Below are positions 14,382-21,047 of a stretch of DNA of 43,123 nucleotides, one piece after another (the stretch's first letter is position 1; every line of letters begins with the position of its first letter). This DNA is from Flavobacteriales bacterium (lineage in GTDB: Bacteria > Bacteroidota > Bacteroidia > Flavobacteriales_F > PHOS-HE28): assembly GCA_017987115.1 (NCBI GenBank), contig JAGNUG010000021.1, positions 1-43,123 on the forward strand. Reading direction: 5' to 3'. The translations under genes and the position numbers were made by a program. The notes under the pieces were generated by a model. That model searched no databases and was not told where the DNA came from. It saw nothing but the letters and a program-made list of their open reading frames with translations.

Positions 14382-14735
14382 GTGATCTTGGGATCAGTGA
14401 CCCTCGTTCTTGGGGTATTCTATTTCATTGACCCTGCTTCAGGTCGGCTTTTTTCTTGCCCGTTGAATGAACTCACAGGACTTCTTTGCCCAGGATGCGG
14501 TTCTCAACGCGCATTGCACGCATTATTGCATGGAGAACCGTTTGCTGCTATGCATCACAATCCACTGACTTCCATAGGTATTCCGGCATTGGGCATTCAA
14601 CTGGTCTTGAATCGGGCTTGGTCCGGCAAGGCTTGGCCTGAACTACCAAAATGGAGCGTTATCTCTTGGATGATCGTTATCGGAGGCTGGGGGATCTTAC
14701 GCAATATGCCCGTCTTTAGTGGCTTAGGCAGCTAA
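14382..14735 (+). CDS. DUF2752 small membrane protein
   Basis: A 117-residue protein with three hydrophobic segments. It carries the DUF2752 signature: DPASGRLFSCPLNELTGLLCPGCGSQRALHALLHGE, with the conserved C-P-G-C-G-x-x-R-A core and later MHHNPL. The family function is unknown. The start is uncertain. The GTG at 14382 is the first standard start codon near the end of manC, but the frame is open further upstream and the GTG lies inside a hairpin (14367-14389). Confidence 0.75.
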   Translation: MILGSVTLVLGVFYFIDPASGRLFSCPLNELTGLLCPGCGSQRALHALLHGEPFAAMHHNPLTSIGIPALGIQLVLNRAWSGKAWPELPKWSVISWMIVIGGWGILRNMPVFSGLGS

Positions 14736-15944: not shown

Positions 15945-15958
15945 GTGATGTACATCAC
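15945..15958. promoter_or_regulatory. Crp-like palindrome upstream of the TauE/persulfide-dioxygenase operon
   Basis: GTGATGTACATCAC is a perfect 14-bp palindrome with CRP-like GTGA half-sites. Its centre (15951.5) is 29.5 bp before the first base of the -7 box at 15981. That places it near -40, the class II activator position. The same geometry occurs at two other promoters of the cassette (19046-19059 and 19089-19102). Confidence 0.7.
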
Positions 15959-15980: not shown

Positions 15981-15988
15981 TAGATTTG
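15981..15988 (+). promoter_or_regulatory. -7 box TAGATTTG for the TauE operon
   Basis: An exact match to TAnnTTTG, 42 bases before the ATG at 16031. There is no -33 TTG at the usual place, which fits a promoter that depends on an activator bound at 15945-15958. Confidence 0.6.
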
Positions 15989-16030: not shown

Positions 16031-16828
16031 ATGGAGATAGTAGGTTACATAGGAGCACTGGCAATGGGCATTACGCTCGGTTTGTTCGGTGGTGGCGGAT
16101 CAATTCTTATCGTTCCCATACTGGTCTACCTTTTCGGGCAGGACCCCATTACCGCTACGGGTCTTTCGTTGTTCATTGTAGGAACCACGAGCGCTGTCGG
16201 ATCCTTCACCCATCACCGGCAAAGCAACATCCATTGGAGAACTGCTTTTCTATTCGGTGCCTCTTCCGTGATCAGCGTATTCGCAACGCGGTATTGGTTG
16301 ATCCCGGCACTGCCTGATCCATTGCTCATTCTCGGCAGCGTTTCTGTTGGCAAGGGCACTGCGATACTTGTGCTGTTCGCGCTGCTAATGTTGCTTGCTT
16401 CCGTATCCATGATCCGGAAACGAATTGAACGCAACGACCAGCGAAAACAGGGATCAAGTCCAATGGCGCTATTGGTTATCGGCCTACTTTCCGGACTGAT
16501 CACCGGTATACTCGGCGCGGGTGGTGGCTTCTTGATCGTACCGGCGTTGGTGCTTCTTGCAGGGCTTGATATGAAAAAAGCCGTAGGCACATCCCTGTTG
16601 TTGATCACCGTAAATGCCTTTATCGGTTTCATCGGAGATCCAGATATCCACATCAAAGAGCATTACACGATCCTATTACCGCTATTGACCCTCGCTATCC
16701 TGGGAACGATCCTAGGCAGCCAATTGTCGAAACGGATCGATGGAGAACGGCTTCGTCCTATCTTCGGGTGGTTCGTTCTGTCAATGGGGGTCATCATCAT
16801 GATCAAAGAACTATGGATCCTCAAGTAA
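16031..16828 (+). CDS. TauE/SafE family sulfite/sulfur-compound exporter
   Basis: A 265-residue membrane protein with about eight hydrophobic segments and the internal two-fold repeat typical of TauE/SafE. GITLGLFGGGGSILIVPILVYLFG near residue 14 is matched by GLITGILGAGGGFLIVPALVLLAG near residue 157. The family exports sulfite, sulfoacetate or related anions. It is the first gene of the unit with the persulfide dioxygenase-rhodanese fusion 34 bp downstream. The likely role is removal of sulfite or thiosulfate made by that enzyme; the substrate is inferred from context. Confidence 0.88.
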   Translation: MEIVGYIGALAMGITLGLFGGGGSILIVPILVYLFGQDPITATGLSLFIVGTTSAVGSFTHHRQSNIHWRTAFLFGASSVISVFATRYWLIPALPDPLLILGSVSVGKGTAILVLFALLMLLASVSMIRKRIERNDQRKQGSSPMALLVIGLLSGLITGILGAGGGFLIVPALVLLAGLDMKKAVGTSLLLITVNAFIGFIGDPDIHIKEHYTILLPLLTLAILGTILGSQLSKRIDGERLRPIFGWFVLSMGVIIMIKELWILK

Positions 16829-16862: not shown

Positions 16863-18275
16863 ATGAAAATTGAACAGATCTATACAGGTTGTCTTGCACA
16901 AGGAGCCTACTACATTGAAAGCAATGGCGAGGTAGCCATCATCGACCCATTGCGCGAATCGCAACCGTACATCGATCGAGCTGAAAAGAGCGGCGCCAAG
17001 ATCAAATACGTTCTGGAAACGCACTTCCATGCTGACTTCGTAAGTGGACATGTGGACCTTGCAGAACGTACAGGAGCGACGATCATCTACGGCCCGAATG
17101 CGAACCCCGATTTCACAGCGCACATTGCAAAAGACGGCGAGGAGTTGAAACTTGGGAATGTCACCATCAAGGTTTTGCATACTCCAGGCCATACCATGGA
17201 AAGCACCACGTATCTATTGATCGACGAGCAAGGCAAACCGCATTGCATCTTCAGTGGAGATACGCTTTTCATTGGTGATGTTGGACGTCCGGACCTTGCG
17301 CAAAAAATGGGATCGATCACCCAAGAGGATCTTGCGGGGTACCTGTATGATTCATTGCACACCAAGATCATGACCTTGCCCGATGATGTGATCGTTTACC
17401 CGGCGCATGGTGCGGGTAGTGCTTGTGGCAAGAACATGAGCAAGGAGACCTTCGACACTTTGGGCCACCAGAAAGAAGTGAACTACGCACTGAAGGCTGA
17501 TACCAAAGAACAATTCATCAAAGAGGTCACCGATGGCATTCTTCCACCGCCTGCTTACTTCCCGCAGAACGTGGCCATGAACAAAGGCACCATCCCGAGC
17601 TTGGATAAAGTGAAGGAAATGGGCATGCGGGCATTAACGCCGGATCAACTGGAACTGGTGGTTGAAGGAGAAGGCGCACTAGTGCTGGACACACGCGCAC
17701 CGCAGACCTTCAAGGATGGATTCGTACCGCGTAGCATCAACATCGGATTGAAAGGTGATTTCGCGCCGTGGGTGGGAGCTATGATCCCGGATGTAAAACA
17801 CCCGATCGTCATCGTCGCTGATGAAGGATCCGAAGATGAGACCGTTACGCGCTTGGCCCGTGTAGGCTACGACAATGTCTTCGGTTATTTGGAGGGTGGT
17901 ATCAACGCATGGAAAAAAGCAGGTCGTGAAGTGGATACATTGGAAAGCATCAGTGCCGAAGAATTCGCAACGCGTATGAAAGCCGAAAAGCTGAATGTGT
18001 TCGATGTACGCAAACAAGGTGAATGGGAAGCGGAACATCTGGAGCATGCCAAGCACGCTTCACTGCAATTCCTGAACGATCATCTTGCTGAGTTCAATAA
18101 GACTGGACCGAATTATATCCACTGCGCTGGTGGTTATCGAAGTATGATCGCAAGCTCTGTGCTGAAGTCACGCGGGTATCACAATGTGGTCGATGTGGCC
18201 GGTGGATTTGCAGCGATCAAGAAAACGGATCTGGCAACCACGGAATTCGTTTGCCCGAGTACGTTGAAGAGTTAG
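16863..18275 (+). CDS. Persulfide dioxygenase-rhodanese fusion (MBL fold)
   Basis: A 470-residue ETHE1-like protein of the CstB/PDO-rhodanese kind, likely to oxidise glutathione-type or low-molecular-weight persulfides to sulfite and transfer sulfur to give thiosulfate. The metallo-beta-lactamase part has THFHADFVSGH (53-63), HTPGHTME with H110, and SGDTLF with D133; by comparison with ETHE1 the iron ligands would be H54, H110 and D133. Two rhodanese domains follow. The first (about 262-355) has VADEGSEDE where the catalytic Cys loop should be, so it looks inactive. The second (about 363-465) has CAGGYRS with C421. It is co-transcribed with the TauE-like exporter. Confidence 0.9.
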   Translation: MKIEQIYTGCLAQGAYYIESNGEVAIIDPLRESQPYIDRAEKSGAKIKYVLETHFHADFVSGHVDLAERTGATIIYGPNANPDFTAHIAKDGEELKLGNVTIKVLHTPGHTMESTTYLLIDEQGKPHCIFSGDTLFIGDVGRPDLAQKMGSITQEDLAGYLYDSLHTKIMTLPDDVIVYPAHGAGSACGKNMSKETFDTLGHQKEVNYALKADTKEQFIKEVTDGILPPPAYFPQNVAMNKGTIPSLDKVKEMGMRALTPDQLELVVEGEGALVLDTRAPQTFKDGFVPRSINIGLKGDFAPWVGAMIPDVKHPIVIVADEGSEDETVTRLARVGYDNVFGYLEGGINAWKKAGREVDTLESISAEEFATRMKAEKLNVFDVRKQGEWEAEHLEHAKHASLQFLNDHLAEFNKTGPNYIHCAGGYRSMIASSVLKSRGYHNVVDVAGGFAAIKKTDLATTEFVCPSTLKS

Positions 18276-18346: not shown

Positions 18347-18991
18347 CTAAGCCAACTCCTTTTTGGCGAGGTAGAAATCGATCAGTTCAATACCCTTCTC
18401 GTTCAAGCGTGCGTCCAGATCCTTCAAGGTCTTTGGTGGAGGAAGGATCACGCGATCACCTTTCTTCCAATTCAACGGCATGGCGCAACCCTTTTCATCT
18501 GCTGTTTGCATTGCCTCCAGCACACGTTTGATCTCTTCCATGTTGCGACCAACATTCAGTGGGTAGTACATGATCAACCGGATGATCCCCTTCGGATCGA
18601 TGAAGAATACGGCTCTTACAGCAGCGGTACTGCTCGCATTATCATGCAACATCCCATACAAATGCGCCACCTTCATATCAATGTCCGCAATGATCGGAAA
18701 GTCCATGTATACGCCGGTCTTCTCGCGCACATTCTGCACCCAGGCCACGTGGCTGTGGATACTGTCTATGCTTTCACCGATCAACTTCGTGTTCCGTTCC
18801 GCGAACCATTTCTTCTCTTGCGCAAAGCCTGATAGTTCCGTGGTACACACCGGCGTGAAATCTGCAGGATGTGAGAACAGGATGGTCCAGCTATCCTTTA
18901 TGTATTCACTGAACTTGATCGGACCTATGGTCGTTAATGCATCAAAATCCGGAGCAGGATCACCGATCCGGGGCATGTGTGTTGTTTCCAT
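18347..18991 (-). CDS. 1-Cys peroxiredoxin (Prx6 family)
   Basis: Thiol peroxidase of 214 residues from the ATG at 18991, the Prx6-type length. The peroxidatic Cys is C49 in HPADFTPVCTTELSGF. The C-terminal extension (WKKGDRVILPPPKTLKDLDARL) is typical of the Prx6 group, and no resolving-Cys partner motif is seen. An in-frame extension to 19150 is rejected because it would be translated through the promoter and its residues are not peroxiredoxin-like. A Crp-like palindrome (19046-19059) lies upstream with the same spacing as the other sulfur promoters, so this gene is probably part of the same regulon. Confidence 0.9.
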   Translation of the reverse strand: METTHMPRIGDPAPDFDALTTIGPIKFSEYIKDSWTILFSHPADFTPVCTTELSGFAQEKKWFAERNTKLIGESIDSIHSHVAWVQNVREKTGVYMDFPIIADIDMKVAHLYGMLHDNASSTAAVRAVFFIDPKGIIRLIMYYPLNVGRNMEEIKRVLEAMQTADEKGCAMPLNWKKGDRVILPPPKTLKDLDARLNEKGIELIDFYLAKKELA

Positions 18992-19015: not shown

Positions 19016-19023
19016 CAAAGTGA
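19016..19023 (-). promoter_or_regulatory. -7 box TCACTTTG for the peroxiredoxin gene
   Basis: The minus strand reads TCACTTTG, one base off TAnnTTTG. It begins 29.5 bp from the centre of the palindrome at 19046-19059 and lies 24 bases before the ATG at 18991. Confidence 0.5.
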
Positions 19024-19045: not shown

Positions 19046-19059
19046 GTGACATCGGTCAC
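19046..19059. promoter_or_regulatory. Crp-like palindrome for the peroxiredoxin gene
   Basis: GTGACATCGGTCAC has perfect GTGAC/GTCAC arms around four central bases, the same 14-bp size as the site at 15945. Relative to the minus-strand -7 box its centre is 29.5 bp upstream, identical to the other two sites. Confidence 0.62.
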
Positions 19060-19088: not shown

Positions 19089-19102
19089 GTGATGTTCATC
19101 AC
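19089..19102. promoter_or_regulatory. Crp-like palindrome for the small sulfur operon
   Basis: GTGATGTTCATCAC has perfect GTGATG/CATCAC arms with only the central pair asymmetric. Its centre (19095.5) is 29.5 bp upstream of the -7 box at 19125. It is 43 bp (about four helix turns) from the neighbouring site at 19046-19059. Confidence 0.68.
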
Positions 19103-19124: not shown

Positions 19125-19132
19125 GACCTTTG
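19125..19132 (+). promoter_or_regulatory. -7 box GACCTTTG for the small sulfur operon
   Basis: GACCTTTG differs from TAnnTTTG only at the first base and lies 21 bases before the ATG at 19154. Confidence 0.45.
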
Positions 19133-19153: not shown

Positions 19154-19354
19154 ATGAAACCGAATATGGGAAGTTTGGATCGCACCATCCGCATTCTAGC
19201 GGCGGTGGGGATCATTGCACTCTACTTTGCGAATGTGATCACCGGAACAATTGGACTATTGGCACTGGCTTTTGCTGCGATCTTCCTGCTAACCGGCTTC
19301 GTAAGTTTCTGCCCACTCTACGCACCGTTCAAGTTCTCCACTCGAAAGAAATGA
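19154..19354 (+). CDS. DUF2892/YgaP-like small membrane protein
   Basis: A 66-residue protein with the DUF2892 layout: a short polar N-terminus (MKPNMGSLDRTIR), two hydrophobic helices, and the conserved tail LTGFVSFCPLYAPFKFST. In E. coli YgaP this transmembrane part is fused to a rhodanese; here a separate rhodanese is encoded two genes downstream. The start follows directly from a promoter-like box. Its stop overlaps the next start (ATGA at 19351), so the two are translationally coupled. Confidence 0.82.
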   Translation: MKPNMGSLDRTIRILAAVGIIALYFANVITGTIGLLALAFAAIFLLTGFVSFCPLYAPFKFSTRKK

Positions 19355-19542
19355 AACGAACGATACTGTATACATCATTGGGAGTATTGCTTGGTGCGGT
19401 AGCCGGATATCTGTACTACCATTTTTATGGTTGCACGAACGGATGCAGTATAACGGGCAGTCCGATCAACAGCACATTGTATGGGTCGTTCATGGGTGGT
19501 CTGCTCGTGAACACCTTCAAGAAGGACAATAAACACGAATAA
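19351..19542 (+). CDS. DUF6132-like small membrane protein
   Basis: A 63-residue protein with a glycine-rich hydrophobic helix (LYTSLGVLLGAVAGYLYYHF), a Cys pair in YGCTNGCSITGSPINSTLYG, and a second short hydrophobic stretch (GSFMGGLLVNTF). I match this pattern to the DUF6132 family from memory. The function is unknown. The start overlaps the preceding stop by 4 bases, and 15 bp separate it from the rhodanese gene. The two cysteines and the location suggest a part in sulfur handling at the membrane (inference). Confidence 0.72.
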   Translation: MKRTILYTSLGVLLGAVAGYLYYHFYGCTNGCSITGSPINSTLYGSFMGGLLVNTFKKDNKHE

Positions 19543-19557
19543 CTCGAACACACTAAC

Positions 19558-19860
19558 ATGCTACGCACTCTTTTTGGAATGGGTCCTAAAGTGGACTATA
19601 AGGAACTTGTCTCTAACGGCGCTACGATCCTGGATGTACGATCCAAGGCGGAATTCGCCAGCGGCCACGTAAAAGGAGCCATCAATATCCCACTGGACCA
19701 GCTCGCTGGCCAGATGAAAAAACTACCGAAGGGCAAACCTGTAGTTGCATGCTGCCTGAGCGGCGCACGCAGTGGCCGTGCGGTGGACATGCTCAAGGCC
19801 GAAGGGATCGACGCATACAATGGTGGCGGTTGGGCAAGCCTGAACAGCGCTCTGAATTAA
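19558..19860 (+). CDS. Single-domain rhodanese sulfurtransferase
   Basis: A 100-residue rhodanese like the PspE/GlpE class. It has ILDVRSKAEFASGHVKGAINIPL (24-46) and the active-site loop CLSGARSGRA with the catalytic Cys at 66, preceded by a second Cys at 65. It binds persulfide sulfur on C66 and can pass it to thiols or cyanide. It lacks a signal peptide, so it is likely cytosolic. The location between two YgaP-like membrane protein genes and before thioredoxin suggests it works with them in sulfane-sulfur transfer. Confidence 0.92.
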   Translation: MLRTLFGMGPKVDYKELVSNGATILDVRSKAEFASGHVKGAINIPLDQLAGQMKKLPKGKPVVACCLSGARSGRAVDMLKAEGIDAYNGGGWASLNSALN

Positions 19861-19870
19861 GGTAACTGGA

Positions 19871-20119
19871 ATGCGCTCATTGCTTCAGAATTGGCCGATG
19901 CCTCGAATTCTGCGACTCGCTTTCGCGGTAGTATTCCTTGCAGCTGGACTATCCAGAGGAGATACGTTGGCCTATTTCATTGCCGCCGTATTTGGAATAC
20001 AAGCGGTATTCAACATCGGCTGTTGCGGAGCGACGTGCGCACCCTCAACTGCAACGAGCCAAGCATCCGATGTGGCTGTGTCAGCGATCAAGGACGTAAC
20101 CTTTGAAGAGGTAAAATAA
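19871..20119 (+). CDS. YgaP-like small membrane protein with GCCGATCAP motif
   Basis: An 82-residue protein resembling DUF2892. The hydrophobic region ([20 protein letters not shown], then [17 protein letters not shown]) leads into GCCGATCAP, a three-Cys cluster directly after the membrane helix, then a polar tail. It is unlike the first DUF2892-like protein of the operon in having this cluster instead of FCPLYAPF. The position 10 bp after the rhodanese and 10 bp before thioredoxin suggests a membrane thiol acceptor, but no function is established. Confidence 0.72.
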
Positions 20120-20129
20120 TCCCATAAAA

Positions 20130-20429
20130 ATGGCAAGCTCATTCAAGGAATTGATCAACGGGGACAAACCAGTATTGGTGGATTTTTTTGCCGAATGGTG
20201 TGGTCCCTGTAAAATGATGAAACCCATTCTTGACGAGTTCAAGGGCCAGATCGGCGATAAGGCCGTTGTGATCAAGATCGACGTTGACAAGAATCAAGCC
20301 GCGGCACAAGCCTATCAGGTGCGCGGTGTGCCTACCCTCGCGATCTTCAAGAACGGTAAAGTAGTTTGGCGTAAGTCGGGTGTACTATCCGCCGCGCAAT
20401 TGAACGAGGCACTGCAACCGTTCCTGTGA
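20130..20429 (+). CDS. Thioredoxin
   Basis: A 99-residue thioredoxin with the active site WCGPC (C24, C27) in [16 protein letters not shown] and the cis-proline loop [10 protein letters not shown]. It is short, cytosolic and has no signal peptide. It is the last gene of the sulfur operon that starts at 19154. Reduction of persulfidated rhodanese, peroxiredoxin or the membrane thiols is the likely job. The stop (20427-20429) abuts the stop of the convergent regulator gene with no space. Confidence 0.93.
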
Positions 20430-21047
20430 TCACTTTGGCTCCCAGGCTGCGCTAACATGTACTTCCAGCGATCCACGTGAGATCGTAACACGACCGCTGT
20501 GCTGCAATTGATGCAATAAGCGTGTGATCACCTCACGGGGTGAATTCAATTCGTTCGCAATATCCTGGTGTGTGGCTTTGATCACATGGGAACCAGTGGC
20601 CTGTACGCGTTTCACCAGGTAATCCCAAAGCTGCTCATCGAGTTTATGGAAGGCGACCACCTCGATCGTTTCCAACAATTCACCGAACCGTTGCGCTTGG
20701 GTCTCACCAACAAAGTGGCGCCATTCAGGATATATCATCCATTCCTCCGCAAAGCGCACAGGAACCATCAAGAGTTCGGCATCCTCTTCCACTATGGCCA
20801 TTACCGAGCTGGTCCGTTTGCTCACACAACAAGTCAAGGACATGGCACAACTCTCACCGGGCATGATGTGATACAGGAAGCGCTCGTGACCTTCAGCGTC
20901 CTGAGCGAGTATCCGGATACTACCTTTCTCCACGATCGGCACATGCGTTATCGAGTCACCAACGCGCATCAATTCCTGTCCTGCGGGAATGGACTTCCGA
21001 ACCACCTCTCGTTCGAATTCAGCTCTTAATGTTGGGTCTACGAACAT
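20430..21047 (-). CDS. Crp/Fnr-family transcription regulator
   Basis: A 205-residue regulator. Residues about 15-110 form the cyclic-nucleotide-binding-type beta barrel, with IVEKGSIRILAQDAEGHERFLYHIMPGESCAMSLTCC, where three cysteines (C67, C73, C74) replace what in CRP is the ligand pocket region. The C-terminal winged helix has THQDIANELNSPREVITRLLHQL; R171, E172 and R176 align with the R-E-T-V-G-R of E. coli CRP that contacts GTGA. Three GTGA palindromes lie in the adjacent operons. It is probably the regulator of the sulfur cassette; sensing of sulfur or redox state through the cysteines is inferred. No palindrome was found in its own upstream region. Confidence 0.9.
   Translation of the reverse strand: MFVDPTLRAEFEREVVRKSIPAGQELMRVGDSITHVPIVEKGSIRILAQDAEGHERFLYHIMPGESCAMSLTCCVSKRTSSVMAIVEEDAELLMVPVRFAEEWMIYPEWRHFVGETQAQRFGELLETIEVVAFHKLDEQLWDYLVKRVQATGSHVIKATHQDIANELNSPREVITRLLHQLQHSGRVTISRGSLEVHVSAAWEPK

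Follow-up and report, generated by a model that had tools for sequence, protein, structure and literature searches.

A Crp/Fnr regulator with an invariant cysteine in its former nucleotide-binding cassette: a predicted activator of reactive-sulfur genes

The sulfur gene cluster and its putative regulator

The window – the whole 43,123-nt stretch of Flavobacteriales DNA analysed here – carries a crp/fnr gene (20430–21047, minus strand), and the neighbours read beside it are sulfur genes. A plus-strand pair encodes a TauE/SafE sulfite-exporter family protein (16031–16828; Pfam) and a protein that joins a metallo-beta-lactamase fold to rhodanese domains (16863–18275) and is persulfide dioxygenase (PDO)-like; the Blh model matches it below cut-off. 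A peroxiredoxin with a 1-cysPrx_C domain (18347–18985, minus strand; profile matches) is read leftward. The ygaP-TM operon, again on the plus strand, comprises a YgaP-like transmembrane protein (YgaP-TM, PF11127/DUF2892; 19157–19354; Pfam), which is the most widespread partner of the regulator, a small Cys-bearing membrane-like frame (19357–19542), a single-domain rhodanese (19558–19860; Pfam), an 82-aa small protein with a GCCG motif (19871–20119) that is conserved beside the rhodanese and has no Pfam match above cut-off, and a thioredoxin (20130–20429; profile matches) convergent with the regulator. The small frame between ygaP-TM and rhodanese shows a weak likeness to DUF6132 (18.2 bits, below the cut-off of 23.2) and conserved-looking Cys pairs; no ATG or GTG start was seen in it. 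Upstream of the sulfur cluster, at 14382–14735, lies a DUF2752 protein with a C-P-G-C-G-S motif.

The regulator gene is complete from ATG to stop and encodes 205 aa. Both Pfam domains are above cut-off – cNMP_binding (PF00027) at 38 bits against 27.5 and HTH_Crp_2 (PF13545) at 33.6 against 27 – which places the protein in the Crp/Fnr superfamily, and an AlphaFold model built on a 58-sequence alignment has the Crp fold (mean pLDDT 93.1). Structure searches matched chains of CRP, FNR, Vfr and NtcA, and Foldseek ranked 4ev0 and 3dv8 first; for most of these matches the rmsd is high over the whole chain, and the domain arrangement is therefore not fixed by them.

An earlier, sequence-only reading of this DNA had drawn attention to three cysteines in the motif SCAMSLTCC. 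C67, C73 and C74 are indeed present and, by eye, are all the cysteines that the protein has; their codons (20847–20849, 20829–20831 and 20826–20828, within 20826–20849 on the minus strand; coordinates by arithmetic) fall in the former phosphate-binding cassette. In alignment to 4ev0 the Gly-Glu of that cassette has become A68-M69, and in the AlphaFold model a short helix (residues 68–76) starts just after C67 and bears both C73 and C74. The recognition helix (20520–20537, minus strand; from the sequence and the family alignment) reads S-P-R171-E172-V-I-T-R176, which is the R-E-x3-R in CRP register that the same reading had described. Five PF00027 proteins were found in the genome, which is 95.94% complete, and the R-E-x3-R helix occurs in the regulator only: the other four have T-E-S or P-E-S helices from which the first Arg is missing.

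Two familiar kinds of regulator can be set aside, as the sequence-only reading had already suggested. An FNR-type protein is contradicted by the absence, across the whole 205-aa sequence, of the N-terminal Cys set for [4Fe-4S], by a helix that is R-E-x3-R and not E-x2-S-R, and by the absence of any TTGAT-N4-ATCAA site in the window. A cAMP-type CRP is rejected on two grounds: position 69, where alignment to 4ev0 puts the cassette Glu, is M, L, T, S, V, I or F and never Glu in any of the 170 members tallied (80 loci from Bacteroidota, 90 from elsewhere), and the regulator scores 31.1 bits on the NCBIfam CRP equivalog model, far below the cut-off of 266.

Conservation of the cysteines and of the gene neighbourhood

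A homologue at E <= 0.001 was found in 72 of 98 related genomes, and a phylum-wide search revealed a step in score, with members at or above about 70 bits and other Crp/Fnr proteins at or below about 41 bits. Relatives extend beyond the Bacteroidota to Chloroflexota, Gamma- and Alphaproteobacteria, Calditrichota, Ignavibacteria, KSB1, Neomarinimicrobiota and others. A scan across genomes with proteobacterial members, using patterns that left the cysteine out, gave 581 confirmed relatives, and 80 loci were kept.

The alignment behind the following counts has 258 rows, among them the window protein (L006) and near-identical rows (for example L139/L140), and its counts are of sequences, not independent events; a duplicate of the window gene (L003), a 22% match (L083), re-fetched duplicates (L276, L282) and paralogues (L001, L002, L004, L005) were excluded beforehand. 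C67 is present in all 258 aligned members, drawn from several phyla. C73 is present in 183 and missing in 75, and C74, found in 88, is lineage-bound. R171 and R176 are each present in 258 of 258, and residue 172 is E in 193, V in 64 and A in one. A further, beta-type set of 29 members has C67 and C73 in 29 of 29 each. Among 20 control Crp/Fnr loci, eight had no alignable protein and one (L365) gave a wrong ORF; in the 11 proteins left for comparison Cys never occurs at position 67, and the cassette is about two residues longer in the subfamily than in the controls.

The sequence-only reading had made conservation in orthologues the test of its cysteines. C67 passes it without exception and C73 for the most part, and C74 is confined to a lineage, so that on the alignment the emphasis would move to C67, then to C73, with C74 a lineage-specific addition. 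Sulfur or YgaP-TM genes are found close by even in clades without C73, such as the SFLGG and SFSA types and one group of Chloroflexota, which points to C67 as the core residue and means that a two-Cys bridge is not universal. A strict C67–C73 or C73–C74 pair as universal sensor was accordingly rejected (183 and 88 of 258).

Other features of the subfamily deserve mention. No conserved His flanks C67 in the 170 loci tallied for position 69. An extra Cys at position 33 occurs in 57 of 170 members, apparently mostly non-Bacteroidota, and could partner C67. Three Crp homologues (L073, L074 and L075) lie in open frames of 560–578 codons, which may be fusions or merely long frames.

The neighbourhood is conserved too. 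Genes for rhodanese, YgaP-TM, thioredoxin and PDO accompany the regulator repeatedly in related genomes; in loci of about 7 kb, sulfur genes were found at 36 of 58 family loci in the phylum, and at none of 20 loci for other Crp/Fnr proteins from the same phylum (p 4.5e-7). In other phyla a YgaP-TM gene adjoins the regulator in most loci, and in alphaproteobacteria YeeE/YedE, MBL, SQR-like and SulP genes lie beside it as well.

Operators, promoter geometry and predicted targets

GTGA-N6-TCAC is the classical half-site and spacing of CRP. The GTGA half-sites that the sequence-only reading had noticed nearby amount to five perfect GTGA-N6-TCAC palindromes in the window; shuffled sequence has 1.00 on average, and none of 100 shuffles reached five. 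Three of the five stand in intergenic regions of the sulfur cluster – before tauE-PDO, the peroxiredoxin gene and the ygaP operon – in agreement with the role in the adjoining persulfide genes that had been suggested. Pattern searches place the predicted operator before tauE-PDO, GTGATGTACATCAC, at 15945–15958 (plus strand), with the -7 element TAGATTTG 22 nt downstream (15981–15988, plus strand). The predicted operator before the leftward peroxiredoxin gene is GTGACCGATGTCAC (19046–19059, minus strand), with TCACTTTG as -7 element (19016–19023, minus strand); that before the ygaP-TM operon is GTGATGTTCATCAC (19089–19102, plus strand), with GACCTTTG (19125–19132, plus strand). At all three, nnnnTTTG stands exactly 22 nt on (three found against 0.01 expected from shuffles), an element that resembles the Bacteroidota -7 box, TAnnTTTG. 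With an assumed transcription start offset, the site centre would lie near -41.5, the geometry of a class II activator, and this position suggests activation rather than repression.

The arrangement is not peculiar to the window. Loci of 31 genus relatives contain 60 GTGA-N6-TCAC sites against 4.2 expected from base composition only, the sites recur before the same genes, and 42 of 48 -7-like elements at <= 45 nt from genus sites are at exactly 22 nt. Upstream of the regulator gene itself there is no GTGA-N6-TCAC in the window, and the first half-site survey found no enriched GTGA motif there. Autoregulation through an upstream site was therefore rejected for the window; yet some relatives may autoregulate, as 5 of 76 Bacteroidota loci with E172 (RE loci) carry an upstream GTGA-N6-TCAC against 0.29 expected from base composition only. 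TTGG-N6-CCAA palindromes were seen upstream of crp in 8 of 64 Bacteroidota loci of the V172 (RV) type, against 0.22 expected, and are perhaps another regulator's site.

Just downstream of the gene, the form of the site differs with residue 172. Among Bacteroidota with E172, 29 of 76 loci have GTGA-N6-TCAC and none has GTAAC-N4-GTTAC; among those with V172, none of 64 has the former and 16 have the latter (Fisher p 1.5e-12). A perfect site stands there in only 29 of 76 RE and 17 of 64 RV loci. In the E172 group the spacing to TTTG is 22 nt (7 cases) or 23 nt (12 cases). On a quick tree E and V switched 7 times, giving three supported independent contrasts, all of which agree (p 0.25); with only three, a phylogeny-aware test cannot reach significance. 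On the sequences compared, the half-site appears to follow residue 172, in line with what is known of CRP, where residue 181 and the operator have co-evolved. According to the available text of Rodionov et al. 2005 (PMC1274295), HcpR1 and HcpR2 are Crp/Fnr proteins whose CRP-like or GTAACnnnnGTTAC motif follows residues 180/181. The HcpR2 motif, GTAACnnnnGTTAC, is also the site of the E172V members. HcpR2, by the same partial source, has Pro at the CRP 181 position and controls hcp; the subfamily, in contrast, has E, V or A there (193, 64 and 1 of 258), and its E172V members have Val, not Pro, with rhodanese, PDO and YgaP-type genes as targets. Ser or Gln at that position would also be compatible with HcpR2.

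In other phyla, 68 of the 88 loci covered by an unbiased half-site survey carry GTGA-N5-TCAC immediately downstream of the gene, against 0.47 expected from base composition only; 22 nt is the commonest spacing to a nearby TAnnnT (38 of 68 sites). The operator thus has N5 (13 bp) outside the Bacteroidota versus N6 (14 bp) inside (L088–L176 loci downstream of crp); the half-site is identical and the distance to the promoter element about equal. GTGA-N5-TCAC is missing from a number of beta-type loci whose regulator has a V-R-E-I/M helix (L376–L399, from the order of G098), although YgaP-TM is adjacent.

Searched across the 43 genomes of the genus set, GTGA-N6-TCAC-N26-TTTG gave 174 sites (summed) versus 5 for a reversed-pattern control, and the operator with GAMCTTTG gave 59 versus 0. 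Of 30 GAMCTTTG loci compared with the window genes alone as queries, 20 proved to lie directly before rhodanese, YgaP-TM, thioredoxin, PDO-like or peroxiredoxin genes, several of these loci being the regulator's own cluster. Adding OsmC, DUF302 and DsrE-like proteins raises this to 27 of 30, a figure that is partly circular, since the OsmC, DUF302, DsrE, ArsR and kelch-like queries came from 20 hand-picked unlinked sites. Unlinked genus sites precede rhodanese, SQR, DsrE-like, OsmC, DUF302 and peroxiredoxin genes; the gene behind two hand-picked sites is SQR-like, Pfam giving an oxidoreductase fold only. Outside the window, the genome has operators before an OsmC protein (L233), before a small membrane protein and rhodanese (L255) and before a large secreted-type protein (L256); the genes behind a further operator, L254, include no convincing target. 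Four loci (L256, L402, L407, L412) share, behind the operator, a large secreted-type protein that matches no Pfam family, and in five others (L400, L401, L403, L404, L419) a pair of operators is separated by about 1.9 kb, one preceding a DsrE-like secreted protein and the other a rhodanese.

A proposed cysteine switch, its alternatives and known systems

We regard the regulator as probably an activator of reactive-sulfur genes that works by a thiol switch centred on C67 in a degenerate phosphate-binding cassette. Behind this reading stand the fold, the loss of the nucleotide cassette, the operator, its spacing, the regulon and the invariance of C67, all established computationally. The protein would act as a Crp/Fnr-fold dimer whose cyclic-nucleotide site has been lost, the cassette being remade as a short helix that C67 immediately precedes, with C73 usually one or two turns on. 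A rise in persulfide or polysulfide would convert C67, alone or with C73, to a persulfide or to a di- or polysulfide bridge, and this modification would bring the beta-roll and dimer helix into the conformation that binds DNA. With R171, E172 and R176 reading GTGA-N6-TCAC at a centre near -41.5, the dimer would recruit the Bacteroidota sigma factor at the TTTG-type -7 element (class II activation). Predicted targets are tauE-PDO, the peroxiredoxin gene and the ygaP-TM-rhodanese-thioredoxin operon in the window, and the OsmC protein and a second rhodanese elsewhere in the genome. That sulfane sulfur (persulfide or polysulfide) is the signal is suggested by the target genes; that C67 is the residue modified, by the fact that it never varies and stands at the head of the cassette helix. 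Two marks of sulfane-sulfur regulators bear on this: a conserved reactive cysteine, for which C67 would qualify by conservation alone (258 of 258), and a link to, and control of, SQR, PDO or rhodanese genes, seen here computationally through synteny and operators.

The same regulon admits a broader signal. C67 might be a general thiol redox sensor, oxidised by peroxide, HOCl, NO or electrophiles to a sulfenate, disulfide or S-nitroso form, the sulfur genes then being part of an oxidant-repair regulon. Prx, Trx and OsmC are under the same operators and equally fit peroxide or electrophile stress, and a lone Cys is enough in some redox regulators, as with C183 of FixK2 in the available text of PMC12937710. 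Yet the most repeated targets are rhodanese, YgaP-TM, PDO, TauE, YeeE, SQR and DsrE-like genes, not catalase-type ones, and C67 has been lost in no aligned member; we consider a general redox sensor unlikely. Rather improbable is a small sulfur metabolite – thiosulfate, sulfite, or a low-molecular-weight persulfide or thiol – bound non-covalently, with C67 merely lining the pocket: the sulfur gene context would suit it, and PrfA, activated by reduced glutathione, shows that this fold can take a thiol ligand (PMC12937710, in part), but a bound metabolite leaves unexplained why position 67 is Cys, never Ser or Ala, in 258 of 258.

C67 could also be the axial ligand of haem or another metal, through which H2S, NO, CO or redox state would be sensed. 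A cysteine is an axial ligand of the CooA haem in some states, and a single invariant Cys is what one would expect of a metal ligand. CooA is moreover a Crp/Fnr haem protein with its cofactor in the cavity of the N-terminal domain (PMC12937710, available text); its haem, however, needs loss of the CRP 72–82 region according to the same text, whereas the cassette here is kept and about two residues longer. There is also no conserved His beside C67 in the 170 loci tallied, position 69 being L, M, V, T, S, I or F; we regard a metal centre as improbable. The GTGA sites, whose half-site and spacing are also those of classical CRP, might belong to another Crp/Fnr protein, the position of the gene being incidental. 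A CRP-like form of the site does appear in the available text of PMC1274295, but this explanation is scarcely credible: the first Arg is missing in the genome's other four PF00027 proteins, the site turns to GTAAC exactly where the regulator has E172V, and sites lie just downstream of the regulator gene in many phyla.

How does the C67-centred thiol switch compare with what is known? The regulator shares with E. coli CRP its fold, the R-E-x3-R helix and the GTGA-N6-TCAC half-sites and spacing, and differs from it in that the cassette Glu is replaced and C67 stands in the cassette. Its best PDB sequence match (1.4e-20) is 3dv8, the structural-genomics entry for EUBREC_1222 of Eubacterium rectale, which likewise has Cys at both the C67 and C73 positions (CLLSASC) and a REVITR helix but no equivalent of C74. 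A Firmicutes relative on a plasmid (Pusillibacter; the one examined) is not accompanied by the sulfur cluster. We know of no Cys-bearing cassette of this kind in CooA, PrfA or FixK2. These are Crp/Fnr proteins with, respectively, a haem ligand, a glutathione ligand and a Cys in the DNA-binding domain, as described in the available text of a 2026 structural survey of the FNR/CRP family (PMC12937710), where no mention of 3DV8 was found.

The bacterial persulfide sensors known so far belong to the ArsR, CsoR and Fis families. The available portions of PMC9774590, PMC5823870 and PMC9774250 describe CstR (CsoR-like), SqrR/BigR/YgaV (ArsR) and FisR (Fis), whose cysteines form di- to tetrasulfides and in this way govern SQR, PDO, rhodanese and sulfur transporters. 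CstR and SqrR/BigR act by repression and FisR as a sigma-54 activator, and none has a fold related to Crp/Fnr. The reactive-sulfur regulators named in the accessible part of one review are CstR, SqrR, BigR, PigS and FisR (PMC9774590). The Crp that is persulfidated in A. baumannii is of cAMP type (PMC7315123, in part); that paper, like PMC8014003, PMC6710368 and PMC8148161 in the parts available, has other subjects than the invariant-Cys subfamily. The open-access literature, to which the search was confined (subscription papers lay outside its scope), yielded no description of the subfamily or of a Crp/Fnr sulfane-sulfur sensor. We rate as new a kind of sensor site in a Crp/Fnr activator, for a function so far assigned to other families.

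We see an even chance that Crp/Fnr proteins with the invariant-Cys cassette are activators that sense sulfane sulfur and make up a class that is broad, ancient and has been overlooked – across Bacteroidota, Chloroflexota, Pseudomonadota, Calditrichota, Ignavibacteria and others. In this class a covalent thiol switch would take the place of cAMP, and rhodanese, PDO, SQR, YgaP and YeeE genes would be controlled through one class II operator with a half-site that varies with residue 172. If so, Bacteroidota and many other phyla would control sulfane sulfur through a further, Crp/Fnr-based class, and its operator would be sufficiently precise for regulon prediction; an unnamed 'Crp/Fnr family regulator' would become a testable switch, and a cyclic-nucleotide pocket would be seen rebuilt into a cysteine sensor. 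YgaP-like TM (DUF2892), DUF302, DsrE-like and OsmC proteins would gain a common context. In Azospira suillum the DUF2892 gene Dsui_0042 is about 10-fold up under perchlorate-dependent H2S oxidation (PMC5358917, available text); should Dsui_0042 adjoin such a regulator, its induction would lend our reading experimental support.
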